Assembly: GCF_003711515.1 (NCBI RefSeq)
Contig: NW_021167080.1
Span: 5,784,346 to 5,848,345 of the forward strand
Length of the DNA stretch: 64,000 bases
Direction of reading: 5' to 3'
Source of the DNA: Sodiomyces alkalinus F11
Lineage: Eukaryota; Ascomycota; Sordariomycetes; Glomerellales; Plectosphaerellaceae
The notes below the pieces were generated by a model. The model saw only the letters and a list, made by a program, of their open reading frames with translations. It had not been told where the DNA came from and ran no database searches. This document shows positions 436-30,600 of this stretch, piece after piece. The translations under genes and the position numbers were made by a program. The stretch's first letter is position 1. Each line of letters opens with the position of its first letter.

Positions 436-2510
436 TTACGAAGGCGGATTCAGGGGAATCTTTTGCCCGCCCGTGACAAGCCTCTGGAAGACGAGGTCCG
501 GGTCGTACCGCTCCTGAACCTCCTGCAGCCGCTTGACGTTCCTCTCTCCATACGACGCAATGGCCTGCTGGGTCCCGTCCGAATACGGCAACATGCTGTT
601 TGGGAGAGCAGTCGGTCAGCCCACACTCCCGACTCACGACGATAGGATAGTAATCAAAGTCAAGCAAGCTCCACTCACATATAAGGAAACAAGAGATCCT
701 GGAGCTTGGCCTCTGCCTCCATCGTGCGGATGAACACGCCCCACGCCGGGAAGACTTCGTCGATGTCCTCCACGTTGTTGAACTGGAGGCCCAGGTAGAA
801 GACTGTTCTCGCGCGCACACGTGTCAGCCAAACCACATAGCTGATTCTCTCTTGTTGATGTGTACCTGACGGGATTGGTTGTCAGGATGGAAATATTCAG
901 CTTAAACTAACCTGTCAGGGGCCTCCCTGGCTCGGCCCTGTCGAGGCCGAGAGGGTTGTTTATCCCGGACTTCTCGATAGCCAGCGTTGAGATGGGCATG
1001 ACGGTTTGCAGGCCAGTTAGACCTTCGATGTGGGAAATGCTCGAGCAGAACTCGACCCATTTGTCGAGGATGTAGCTTAAGTACGACTCGTTTGGGTACA
1101 CGGTGAAGGTGAAGTGCGTTTGCCTGGAAATGGGACGCGATATCATATCAGCAGATTCAAGACAGACAGAGATCAAGGCCAACTTACACGAGACCGTCCG
1201 GGAACCCTGCGACCAACTCCTCAGCCAGATCCACATACGAGTTGCTCTTGATAGTTGAGTTATCGTGCTCCACGTCAAGCCACGGCTGCAGCGACTCCGG
1301 CAGCGCGTCTACGGCCTGGTTGTACACAATAGGCGAAAACCCATACGTGGTATTCGTAGCCCCATCGTACACATACGATGGCAGCACGTGTGTGTCGATG
1401 TCCCTCTCGGCCGTCTCAACCTGATACTGATACGTGAGTCTCTTCAGCTGCGGCAGGACGCTCGGCGGATACGTCACCCGTCCGCCATACATGCCCCTAT
1501 GCGGGACAGTTTGCAGAGTCAAGTGCGTAACGACGCCGAAGTTATTCGACGTGCCCTTAAGCGCCCAATACAGCTCCGGGTGGTGCTCCGCATCGGTGTC
1601 CACAACAGTGCCGTTACCGAGCACCACGCGGTGGCCCGCGACGTTGTCGATGGCGAGGCCGTGGCTGTTGGCAAAGAAGGAGAAGCCTGCTCCGAGGGCG
1701 AGGCCGGTGCCCACGGTAGCGAAGCGCCCGCCGACGACCATATAGCCGAGGGGCTCGATAGCGGGGTAAACCTCTGACCAGGTAAGGCCCATGCCGATAG
1801 TGACGGTGCTATTATCGGGAGACATAGTGATGTCGCGGATGCGCTTCATGCTGACGAGGATGCCGTTGTCGATGTTGGCGGCGCCGCGGATGGCGCTGTG
1901 CCCTCCTCCGCGGATCGCGAAAGGGCATCCCTCTTCAGAGAAGATGGAGACGGCTATAGAGACTTCATCGGTGGAGCTGGGGAGGAAGACGCAGGTCGGG
2001 TCAAGCCATTCGGTGGCGGCTGTGGTGTGAGGAAATGGGTATGGTCAGAGACGGGTTTTCAAGTTTCATCAAGCTACAGCTCAACGGAGGAGCTCCGGAG
2101 TAGGGAACGTGCGGACTCAGAGATCATCTCTCGAAGGAAAGGCCAACTTACACCAGAAGGCAGTCTTTTCTCGGTAGTAGGTCGAGGATTGCGAGTTATC
2201 CCGGGCGAAGGTGCTGTCAGGGAAATAAGATGCGAGGGCCGCACACTGCAACAAGTTAGCAGCACGATCTCATGGTAGTCGAGTAAGAGCTCTAGTCTCT
2301 CCAGCAGCCAGAGCCCAGAAGTGATACAGAGGTTAAGGGAGGGGCCAGTTGCATTCTTCTTCTGTACCATGGGACTCCAGATCCGGGCCTATCACTTACA
2401 CATGTCGAGACGGCCACACCTAGATAGGGAGGAGACGTTTCCGGACATACTGCCCACGCAAGGGATGGCAGCGTGGCAACGAGCACGGAAAGCCCACGGA
2501 GAGGTGCCAT
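436..2510 (-). CDS. Secreted FAD-linked oxidoreductase (BBE-like, PCMH-type FAD domain)
   Basis: Six exons give 510 aa and close in frame: 2510-2400, 2245-2152, 2019-1188, 1123-912, 802-679, 595-436. The N-terminus MAPLRGLSVLVATLPSLAWA is a signal peptide, so the enzyme is probably secreted. The FAD domain follows. RGGGHS at about residues 105-110 places His109 where the family binds FAD through histidine. A glycine-rich TVGTGLALGAG segment comes next. I see no Cys of the kind used for a second covalent FAD bond, so single attachment is likely. The C-terminus has the BBE signature YGERN..RL....YDP..VF. Relatives oxidise alcohols, sugars or secondary-metabolite intermediates; the substrate cannot be read from sequence. 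The gene is divergent from the alpha/beta hydrolase across an A+T-rich island. Family call firm, exact splice sites good. Confidence 0.88.
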
Positions 2511-2639
2511 CGCGCTGTGTGATACAGACTTGATAGATCCGGGTGAACACAGCACTGCAAAGTTCAGATGCAGAGTCTAGTGAGCCAAGGCACACTTTCA
2601 GAGGTGAGTTGGGATTAGGAGTTGAAACCAAGGGGGCGG

Positions 2640-4127
2640 ACGGTCCATTTCTGCTGCTACGTGCGTGCTTTTATATTATATGCAACAGCTCCCCTACTTG
2701 GAGCTTTCAGTTACACTGATGGGTTACAATTCGGGACGATTTGCAGTAAGCACGCGTGCCGCACGTGGATAGGTTACACGGGCCTCGAAGGCGAACGGCC
2801 CGAGAAAAGTGACAAGTGGTACAGCAGCAGGTACTATACAACAACCCCTGTTTAATTGTTCAATGGGGTTCATTCGTTAACTACCCTTTTAGGAAGTTGA
2901 GGAAGAGTCGAGAAACGTACCTGCATACCTGCACTAACGGCACGTACCATAAAATATTTTAACAATACAACAAGATATCTCTTTATATTAATCTAGAATC
3001 GATCTATAGCTATTTTATATAGGAATGGATTTAGCTATTATTTATACACGCTATATAGGAGGTAGTTCCTATTAACTTACTAGATATCGACTTTAACTTA
3101 CTGGGGAGTTATAAGGTAGTCTAAAAGAGTACTAAGTAGTATATTCAAACCCCTGTATTTTATATAGAAAACCTATACACTTGATATATCTAGTTGTAGT
3201 CTCTTCCGATTATTATCGTGATACTATTAGTTTATTTAGGCTCCGTAAGTATACTTTAAACAGTTAAACAGGGGTTAGAGTGTATAACTACATTATTATC
3301 TACTGGGACTATATAGTATAAGCCTTACTACTGCTCCCCGTACTTAAAGTATAGGTTAGAAGGTTCTTTAAAGGCCTACTAGTCTTTATATTTTGACAGT
3401 TAGAAGATAAATAAAATAATTATAGACTATAGGGTATATTCTAAGGATATATTCTAGAGTCGAAAAATAAAAGAATAATAGTATTAAATAGTATAGAATA
3501 TATATAGAGTATATACTCCAAAGTAGATAATAGTATATTTAATATTATTATAGAATTATATATTATATATTAAAACTGTATTAATATTCAGAGTACCTTT
3601 AATCTAGACTATAAACTGTCTATATTTCTATTTTATATCGTAATATCATTATTCCACTATTCTTTTTATTATAGTATATATACTAAGTATATATATCGTA
3701 TAAGCCCTCTTTCACGTAAAAGACTTTATTTCTTTAACGCTATAGTATAGTATATTTAAACTATATATACTATTAAGATATACTGTATACAATTAGTACC
3801 TGGCTAAAGTCACGCTTTTGCGGAGCCTATGCAGGCCGTCGCGTATGCAGTCAGGTTCCTCTATTCCTGTGCCTGAGCCGTCTCGCAAGTCCGGGACCTG
3901 AAAAGTCGGTCATCCCTTTTTACCCCCCGTCGAAGTACTCGGGTCCAGAGTCCGGGCACCACCCGGTCCATCACGATCCCTGCACTAGTTCATAAGAATA
4001 GTGGCTTAGTGGCTTTATGGGATTGGAGCTGAAATGGCTTCTTTTTCTAGCCGAATCTGGTTCAGATCTGCCTTGGCGTCACATCCGCCAGTCTGGTTGT
4101 CTAATCTCATAGTCGAACTCGCAAGCA
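2640..4127. repeat. A+T-rich island, probably RIP-mutated repeat (core about 2930-3790)
   Basis: From about 2930 to 3790 the sequence becomes strongly A+T-rich, dominated by TATA/TAGTATA-type words, with no open frame of note. Flanks on both sides return abruptly to ordinary composition. Such sharp A+T-rich blocks in Pezizomycotina are usually old transposon copies hit by RIP. I could not recognise a transposon protein, so the element type is unknown. About 2640-2930 and 3800-4127 contain no gene and probably the promoters of the two divergent genes. Confidence 0.7.
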
Positions 4128-7959: not shown

Positions 7960-10190
7960 GTTATAAGCCTGGCGTTCTAATAAACGAAGCTATTCCGATC
8001 GATCCTATAGCTTCTAGACTATTAAATCAGCCTTAAGTCTATAGCGGGTAGTTTAGTATTATTAGTAATATCTGCCTACTTTAGTTTTATTTAATTATTT
8101 TATTGTTTTTATTATATAACTATTTAAAGCGTTTAGTATAGTTAATTAACCTTTTCGTTTATTCTATTCTACTACTTTTTATTAGTATAACGATAGCTTC
8201 CACGGTAATACTACCTATTATAGGCCTCGTAACGCTTACCGCTCCGAAAGACTAAAGGCCTTGGATTAAAGCCGTGATAACTATCGCGCACTCCTACGAC
8301 CTCGCCGACCTTATTAATCCCGATCTTAAAAAGGCTAAACGGCCTAAGCGCCGTATTCGAACCGATCCAGTAAAACCTCCTACTATAGCCAAAGAATATA
8401 ACGCCTCTAATTAGGATATACTATTTAAGATTTAGTAGGTGAAAGAGGATCGGTATAAGGCTAAAAAGAGGGGGATTTAAGCACTCCACGACTATATCAC
8501 GAAGACGGTTAGCCCTGTTTTAAAGGATTAGTACGCCGGTAAAAAGGAAGTTAAGGATATCCTATATACTCTTAAAATATATCTTAAGCTAATAAACGCC
8601 GCCCAGAAGTTATTAATTAAGCGATATTAGGAGGAATATATATAAAATATTAGGCGAATACCCTATAAGCGCTAGCTAGAGGACTTTATTAAGCTATACC
8701 GGGATACTAAGACGTATAAGGTTAATACCTATAATACTAAGGATAATTAGATTAACGGCTTCTTTAACGCTATTAGGAGCGTTATACCTAAACAGTCTAA
8801 GGCTAAATTTATATACCTTATAACGCTTAAGGAAAAGGACCTACCTTCGATATAGTCTATTATAGAGTAGTATACGATATAGCTTTATCGCCGCTACCCG
8901 TATCGACTCGATAAGAAGCCTACTGTATTATCCTTTTATACGGTAACCTTCCTAGGTAAGGATAAAGAAGGTAAGGATTAGCGGGCATAATCGGGATAAT
9001 AGGGTAATTAATAATCCAATAAATAGTAAAAGAAAGAGTGGCTTTACGACTACCGTATTAAAAAGAGGAGTAAATATAACTATAAGCCTTTATAGAAGTG
9101 CCTAAACGTTAATAAGGCACGTAGGAAGAAGGGATATACACCTTTAAAAGAGATCTTAGAACGCGTCGACCGTATTATTAAGACCTAGGATAATAAACGT
9201 TAAAAGAGATTCCGGGAGAATATCGAGAAGGACGCTAAAAGCCTAAAAACAGGTGCTAAAAAGGACTCTTAGAAGTTATAGCTAAAAGAATCGTCGATAG
9301 AGGTATCTAATTTTATCGATAACCAGGATAAGGATTCCGATAAGGAATCCTATAGAATATACTCTCTTCTATAACTAAACGATAATATTAGTAGTAACCT
9401 CTTTAACCAGCTATTAATCGATTCCGGCACCTCTAGGTATATTACTAGCTAATAACACTTACTATAAGACTTTAAACCTGCTATAGAAGAGTATCGTTTT
9501 TAAACGGGTAGTGGAGAGACTAAGCCAGTTAAGGGTTATAGCAGGATATAATTAGAAGTAGACGACGAATATAGTAATCCCTTTATTTTAGTGCTAAATC
9601 GCGTTACTTTTATATAAGACTACCTAATAACCTTAATCGCGACTAGAAGATTAAAGGAATAGAGTATCGTTTTTAATTCCGGCCTCGAAGTGCTAAAAGT
9701 TAGAAAGGGCTTATTAGCCCTACCTATAAATAACGTTAACGATTAATACGCTCTTATTCTAACGGATCGTTAATAGCACCTACTAAGCAGCTTCTTTAAT
9801 AGCTCTATAACGCCTACTATAAGCGTGGTAGACGCTTATTTATAGTATAAGAGGCTAGGGCACGTAGGCATTACTGCCCTCGATGAAATTAGAGATACCC
9901 TTGTTAGAGGCGTTATTAAAGGAAAAGGTCCTCTTATAGTAGATTATAAGGCCTATACCCTTAGTAAGGTAAAGAAGGTTATCTTAAGAAGGTCACCTAA
10001 CCACTAAACGACGAGGCCGTGGTATAGGGTGGAGGTTAACCTCTTTAGCCTTAACAAGGCCTATAACGGTATATAGGTCATAATGCTTTTATACGATCCC
10101 TGTACTCGTTAAGCTATTATACGGTTCCTGCGTGACTATAAATCAGCCTTACCCACGTTAGTGAATTTTAAGTTCTTCCTAGCAGCTGCT
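7960..10190 (+). mobile_element. Ty1/copia retrotransposon remnant, RIP-mutated and 3'-truncated
   Basis: This is the internal part of a copia element following the LTR. It is crowded with TAA and TAG codons in every frame, as expected after RIP. Recognisable pieces in order are a gag-like stretch (about 8270-9250), the aspartic protease motif DSGTSRYIT (9420-9446), the GAG-pre-integrase motif KRLGHVGITAL (about 9848-9880) and integrase-core wording RPWYRVEVNLFSLNKAYNG (about 10014-10070). Reverse transcriptase, RNase H and the 3' LTR are absent. The element ends near 10190, where a GC-richer PIF1-like fragment begins. It cannot be active. Confidence 0.85.
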
Positions 10191-30444: not shown

Positions 30445-30480
30445 TGGTCCCAGAGAGGCTCGAACTCTCGGCCTTCGCAT

Positions 30481-30502
30481 CACCTAGTACACTGTGGTAT
30501 TG
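30481..30502 (-). other. Canonical tRNA intron (22 nt, after position 37)
   Basis: The segment lies between A37 (30503) and A38 (30480) of the tRNA-Ile anticodon loop, the standard position cut by tRNA splicing endonuclease. Confidence 0.85.
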
Positions 30503-30513
30503 TATTAGTACGA

Positions 30514-30573
30514 CTGGGGAGGGATTAGTGATTTTGCTCTGTCGACTGGAGGAATGGATGGATCGCAACATAC
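30514..30573 (-). other. 60-nt spliceosomal-like insert inside tRNA-Ile, between bases 26 and 27
   Basis: On the minus strand the insert begins GTATGT and ends CCCCAG. It has CACTAATC about a dozen bases before its 3' end, matching the 5' splice site, branch site and 3' splice site of short introns in the protein genes of this window. Sequence on either side is tRNA (GAGCG before, TCGTA after). It is not at the normal tRNA intron position. I see no obvious helix that would form the bulge-helix-bulge needed by tRNA endonuclease. Confidence 0.75.
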
Positions 30574-30600
30574 CGCTCTAACCAATTGAGCTATGGGACC

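Follow-up and report, generated by a model that had tools for sequence, protein, structure and literature searches.

In the soda-lake fungus Sodiomyces alkalinus F11 (Plectosphaerellaceae, Glomerellales, Sordariomycetes), a tRNA-Ile(AAU) gene is interrupted twice, by a 22-nt intron at the canonical 37/38 site and by a 60-nt insert between bases 26 and 27. The gene lies at 30600-30445 on the minus strand of the window, the whole 64,000-nt stretch of DNA that was analysed. Judged from sequence, the 60-nt segment is probably a spliceosomal intron, which would be excised ahead of the endonuclease step at 37/38, and the tRNA gene that contains it is probably still functional. Sequence comparison also leans, with rather less assurance, towards two unrelated splicing machines being needed in turn, and towards an intron that predates the split of the paralogues, its signals and the window exons having been kept while its interior diverged. 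The features of the locus, with that of one paralogue from elsewhere in the genome, are as follows.

30574..30600, minus strand: tRNA-Ile(AAU) exon 1, 27 nt, tRNA positions 1-26 with the A box within; a single D-loop difference from the paralogue L002
30514..30573, minus strand: putative spliceosomal-type intron at 26/27, 60 nt; absent in L002 and L018-L021, with a diverged 60-nt counterpart in L003
30568..30573, minus strand: 5' splice-site-like GTATGT; fits GTRWGT of fungal introns (PMC5832005)
30523..30530, minus strand: branch-site-like CACTAATC, branch-type A at 30525; fits RCTRAY, 6-36 nt from the acceptor (PMC5832005)
30514..30519, minus strand: 3' splice-site-like CCCCAG, from the sequence
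30503..30513, minus strand: tRNA exon 2, 11 nt, positions 27-37, anticodon AAT at 34-36; from the script check and ARAGORN
30481..30502, minus strand: canonical tRNA intron at 37/38, 22 nt; pairing with the anticodon loop is possible (CUA/UAG, followed by a 4-bp helix)
30445..30480, minus strand: tRNA exon 3, 36 nt, positions 38-73 with the B box within; identical to L002
30436..30444, minus strand: run of nine Ts, Pol III terminator-like, directly after the tRNA 3' end, by direct reading
L003 1502-1634 (G000:C2:2953686-2953819), minus strand: decayed tRNA-Ile(AAU) paralogue, from sequence comparison

The five-segment layout of the window gene was verified letter by letter with a script. Once both inserts are removed, 74 nt remain; all four arms of this RNA can pair (the T stem, by reading, as GAGAG/CTCTC), and ARAGORN calls it tRNA-Ile(aat). 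This is what the original prediction had claimed, namely that all arms pair once two segments are taken out. Its placing of 30481-30502 at the standard site after position 37 agrees with the layout, and its placing of 30514-30573 between bases 26 and 27 is upheld by the paralogue L002, which fixes the borders. That the gene is on the minus strand is new with respect to that prediction. By reading and by ARAGORN, the arms of the window gene pair and the expected bases are kept, as in a functional tRNA. The covariance-model tRNA search that had been proposed likewise covers the gene: RF00005, the Rfam tRNA model, aligns to 30600-30445 on the minus strand from its first to its last position with 41.5 bits against a cut-off of 29, although the inserts cause it to misalign the anticodon arm, with four non-standard pairs. 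The minimum-energy fold of the 74-nt mature form has three of the arms (acceptor, D and anticodon), with a different hairpin overlapping the T arm. Genes of this kind can be missed or misnamed by tRNA finders. ARAGORN made no call of this tRNA-Ile gene in a default run on the window and miscalled it tRNA-Ala(tgc) with introns allowed; after removal of the 60 nt only, it reported tRNA-Val(aac) with a 2-nt intron.

The borders of the 60-nt insert are set by homology, independently of any splice signal, because L002 is continuous through the 26/27 site. The sequence GAGCG-TCGTA is unbroken in the five insert-free Ile(AAU) genes, and the borders are ambiguous by one base (a G). Within them the insert starts GTATGT, carries CACTAATC with a branch-type A at 11 nt from the end, and terminates in CCCCAG; the original prediction, which had named the same two termini and a branch-like site about 12 nt from the end, was accurate here. 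The consensus for fungal introns is given as GTRWGT, RCTRAY 6-36 nt from the acceptor, and YAG (PMC5832005). The window insert agrees with GTATGT, with ACTAAT at the stated distance, and with CAG, as expected of a U2-type intron. Its length falls within that of the organism's introns, at the short end of a small sample (60 nt, against 58 nt in U6), and the host RNA is intact after removal, with 73 of 74 positions identical to L002 and a call of tRNA-Ile(aat). Its position, 26/27, is not the 37/38 of an endonuclease-type intron.

For a given start and a length of 50-70 nt, the combination GTRNGT, CTRAY and YAG was found in 68 of 9,181,158 start-by-length cells of genome DNA (7e-6), and the stricter GTAYGT, CTAAY and YAG in eight of the same number (9e-7), after masking of the window gene and exclusion of overlapping loci; both values are overestimates because real introns are counted in. 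Counts made with neither masking nor removal of overlaps (97 and 13 of 13,887,762) agree with these. A DNA insertion, by a mobile element or by chance, that merely resembles an intron would have to present such signals at a chance of about 7e-6, and seems extremely improbable. When the genome (43.4 Mb, 22 contigs) was searched with the window insert, common words and simple repeats being skipped, no other match was found. An insertion is in keeping with this in so far as no match elsewhere marks a spreading intron, but the same search also gave no further copy of an inserted element. By reading, no target-site duplication was found beyond one shared G, and a second insert of equal length occupies the same site in L003.

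When the 5' half of tRNA-Ile was used to search the genome, with up to three mismatches allowed, seven places were found, two of them with the insert and five without. Seven Ile(AAU) genes is a lower bound because the genome tRNA census is partial: 63 of 1453 candidates were scored with RF00005, and that run missed the window gene. Four of the genes (L018-L021) are identical and intronless and represent another isodecoder, differing from L002 at 12 of 74 positions. The window-type genes are three: the window gene; L002, with a 12-nt intron at 37/38 and no insert at 26/27; and L003, with a 60-nt insert at 26/27 and no intron at 37/38.

The L003 insert starts GTACGT, one base off GTRWGT, contains CACTAATT with an A 16 nt before the end, within the consensus range for RCTRAY (ACTAAT), and ends CTCAG. 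It shares GTAYGT, CACTAAT and CAG with the window insert, with CACTAAT 5 nt out of register. Outside these signals, eight of 42 positions are identical in an ungapped comparison, no better than shuffles (p 0.83), and in the stretch from donor to branch site the gapped score was equalled by 714 of 2000 shuffles. Either one intron has diverged to saturation with its signals kept, or two introns have reached the same site, and both readings point to splicing. Of these two putative origins, only the divergence of one intron also shows age.

Comparison of the mature window tRNA with L002 reveals identity at 73 of 74 positions, the one difference lying in the D loop. The 37/38 introns of the two genes differ in length (22 and 12 nt) and in sequence, and the flanks are unrelated, with matches only in simple A-rich or TTG-rich stretches. 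Exons so alike, despite differing introns and unrelated flanks, are as expected if selection held them. Gene conversion among tRNA copies could be an alternative cause of the likeness; it is known between tRNA copies, introns included, according to passages of a review (PMC4090602), but in this case the introns would have to have escaped it. The intact exons would also say little if both inserts arose independently and recently.

Against a functional, spliced gene stand the decayed exons of L003 and the one-base departure of its donor, GTACGT, from GTRWGT. The four differences between L003 and L002 affect the anticodon stem, position 37, the T loop and a lost T-stem base, and Rfam gave no detection of L003 at E values up to 1. 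As the tRNA could come from the five Ile(AAU) genes without the insert, the window gene could be dispensable. It is conceivable, though unlikely, that the insert killed the window copy and is never removed, the five other genes doing the work; damage to the exons of L003 fits such a history. In addition, short insertions in the D and T arms of eukaryotic tRNA genes supposedly mark pseudogenes, and occur mostly in one of many synonymous tRNA genes, according to the parts of a review that deal with them (PMC4090602). One half of what the original prediction had named as the mark of an inactive gene is indeed present, since insert-free Ile(AAU) genes exist (five of the seven places), and it is for this reason that a dead gene keeps some probability. 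However, the decay of exons expected of a pseudogene is seen in L003 and not in the window copy, whose exons are intact, at 73 of 74 positions like those of L002, and are followed by the T run. The borders are precise and of the splice type, and the signals are kept in the diverged insert of L003. The window insert has no other match in the genome, and hence there is no sign of a fresh copy.

Removal of the 26/27 insert as an ectopic tRNA intron, by the tRNA splicing endonuclease or by another nuclease with a ligase, seems very unlikely. Excised ectopic introns do exist, as described in passages on Cyanidioschyzon (where excision is inferred) and the Guillardia nucleomorph (where removal only is seen) (PMC4090602, PMC3978253), and archaeal introns are reported at nearby sites, e.g. 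25/26 and 29/30 (PMC4090602). The original prediction held that a bulge-helix-bulge (BHB) at 26/27 would favour the endonuclease. A scan for helices of at least 3 bp in BHB geometry found none at 26/27 in the window copy, but the scan is insensitive and only indicative because it was blank at the ordinary 37/38 intron of L002 too. At the 37/38 site of the window gene it returned CUA/UAG followed by a 4-bp helix, and at 26/27 in L003 a weak 4-bp helix is allowed. For an insert removed by the endonuclease, the spliceosomal signals would be a coincidence.

Predicted folds bear on the order of removal. In the unspliced RNA the 5' side of the D stem is paired into the insert, at -39.1 kcal/mol compared with -32.9 kcal/mol when the cloverleaf is forced, a fold better by 6.2 kcal/mol. 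Since the unspliced RNA prefers this pairing of D stem and insert, folding of the tRNA probably requires prior removal of the insert. For the form that lacks the 60 nt but retains the 22-nt intron, a cloverleaf was not predicted.

The tRNA endonuclease requires a folded tRNA body. In yeast the enzyme is located on mitochondria (PMC3978253, in the part concerned with its location), and these two properties together suggest that the spliceosome would act first. On this view, a nuclear tRNA-Ile(AAU) gene would have acquired a U2-type spliceosomal intron at 26/27. The gene would be transcribed by Pol III, and the nuclear spliceosome would take out the 60-nt intron first. The D arm, anticodon arm and body could then adopt the tRNA fold, and the tRNA splicing endonuclease, measuring from the folded body, would excise the 22-nt intron at 37/38. 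In this scheme we infer transcription, removal, the enzyme, the order of the steps and the use of the mature tRNA. That the transcript would not be one of Pol II need not, in principle, prevent splicing, because U6 is made by Pol III (PMC10484740, in part) and the U6 gene of fission yeast has an intron. The splicing of that intron suffers in pre-mRNA splicing mutants, according to reference titles cited in PMC5832005.

An intron is also present in the U6 snRNA gene of S. alkalinus. The sole U6 match above the cut-off (C18:28181-28338, L097 62-219; 68.6 bits; 47 of 1917 candidates scored) contains a 58-nt spliceosomal-type intron, GTAAGT ... AACTAACA ... TTACAG, between AGAAGAT and TAGCATGG. 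Its signals are GTAAGT, ACTAAC and ACAG, and the letters flanking it fit the U6 model. A second U6-like place (G000:C1:2110152-2110262, L101) is degenerate, below the cut-off at 35.5 bits, and without an intron. The 31 matches to 5S genes (30 above the cut-off; 47 of 2443 candidates scored), each of 120-121 nt, showed no sign of introns, nor did the single match to SRP RNA, which spans 280 nt where the model has 293 positions (26 of 244 candidates scored). This suggests that introns are not general in the small RNA genes of this genome. Among the options given in the original prediction, the spliceosome is favoured by the signals kept in L003, the intact exons, the lack of a detected BHB and the intron-bearing U6 gene.

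For comparison with mRNA introns, four were placed by homology in the window (68-103 nt), with one ambiguous case near 55 nt. Those of a Brr6-like gene are of 103 nt (GTAGGT, CTGAC, TAG) and 84 nt (GTAAGG, CAG, with no branch motif match found), and those of a STRAP-like gene of 89 nt (GTGAGT, CTAAC, CAG) and 68 nt (GTTTGT, CTGAC, CAG). A PLAA-like gene has an intron of about 55 nt (GTGTGT, CTAAT, TAG), for which other placements are possible. The claim that the insert matches the mRNA introns of this genome in length and signals thus holds for the signals, which are alike, and in part for the length, 60 nt being at the short end of few cases. An ORF-based intron finder was dropped as too noisy, with 76 candidates (repeats counted once) compared with 51 in reversed and complemented controls; in the window alone it gave 12 candidates compared with two in controls. 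Two stretches of the window, 8001-10000 and 2001-4000, are AT-rich (35.5% and 41.2% GC) compared with most of it (near 50-57%), and are perhaps decayed repeats.

Similar genes were sought in the genome by pattern. The D-arm patterns TAGC, TGGC, TAGT and TGGT, each with GTRNGT after position 26, gave 13 matches (5, 3, 4 and 1), compared with 2, 0, 6 and 5 for the reversed-pattern controls. Six of the 13 were examined, and two are the Ile copies. Three others (L093-L095) have no Rfam match at the gathering score. One candidate was rejected: L096 57-149 (G000:C1:2622160-2622460) is by eye a tRNA-Leu(UAG) with a 37/38 intron, at 47.9 bits. Its anticodon stem reads GTACG and looks like a 5' splice site (GTACGT), which can mislead pattern searches. 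Two pattern searches for an A-box to B-box spacing of 84-114 nt, a range exceeded by the window gene itself (116), gave 50 and 18 matches, compared with 13 and 12 in controls; at the gathering score Rfam matched none of the 18, all of which were run, and none of three run from the 50. By reading, 41 of the 50 belong to a dispersed repeat beginning TAGCTTAGAGGCTATCTCC (e.g. L043-L051).

Other tRNA-like loci were seen in passing. L100 (G000:C18:43090-43260) has, by eye, the look of a tRNA gene with an ordinary intron at 37/38 and a long run of Ts, but no Rfam match at the gathering score. Three tRNA matches with like spacing lie at each of two places, G000:C16:528372-529609 and G000:C1:3272974-3274327; as L015 resembles a mitochondrial tRNA on reading, both places may represent mitochondrial DNA within nuclear contigs. 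Among three pattern scans of IMG/VR for fungal relatives, one was empty, and the match L098, on a viral contig, is an ordinary tRNA as judged by eye.

If the spliceosomal reading is true, the substrates of the spliceosome include a tRNA precursor, and such precursors are thought to be processed by endonuclease and ligase only. The two RNA-splicing systems of eukaryotes would meet on one small molecule, where their order and place are directly testable, and an intron would have been gained in a gene that encodes no protein. Searches of an open-access collection, which takes in few subscription journals, turned up no earlier description of spliceosomal introns in nuclear tRNA genes.

Several known systems resemble the window gene in part. 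The introns of fungal U6 snRNA and U3 snoRNA genes are, like the window insert, short GT-AG introns with fungal branch sites in small structured host RNAs; here, in contrast, the insert sits in a tRNA that also carries an endonuclease-type intron. One of the fungi concerned, Acremonium alcalophilum, is presumably the later Sodiomyces alcalophilus, in line with the ACRALDRAFT tag. Its U3 copies include both intron-bearing and intronless ones, and paralogues with and without the intron occur among fungal U6 and U3 genes (PMC5832005, in part). Frequent interruption by an intron is known, according to passages of the same study, for no small structured RNAs other than U3 and U6 (Canzler et al. 2017, PMC5832005).

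Ectopic introns in the tRNA genes of Cyanidioschyzon merolae and nucleomorphs resemble the window case in lying at sites off 37/38, with more than one intron in some genes, as set out in parts of two reports (PMC4090602, PMC3978253). Those of C. merolae are tied to BHB motifs, whereas no BHB was found at the window insert in the insensitive scan. Those of Guillardia are of 3-24 nt, many without a defined BHB, whereas the window insert is of 60 nt with GT, branch-site and AG signals. The host here is a filamentous ascomycete, in contrast to the algal cases. Introns of the mRNA type in fungal nuclear rRNA genes were the subject of a 1993 report, known from its title as cited in PMC11782384. These, like the window insert, represent spliceosomal-type introns in a non-coding RNA that is not made by Pol II, but their host is an rRNA, transcribed by Pol I, and not a tRNA.
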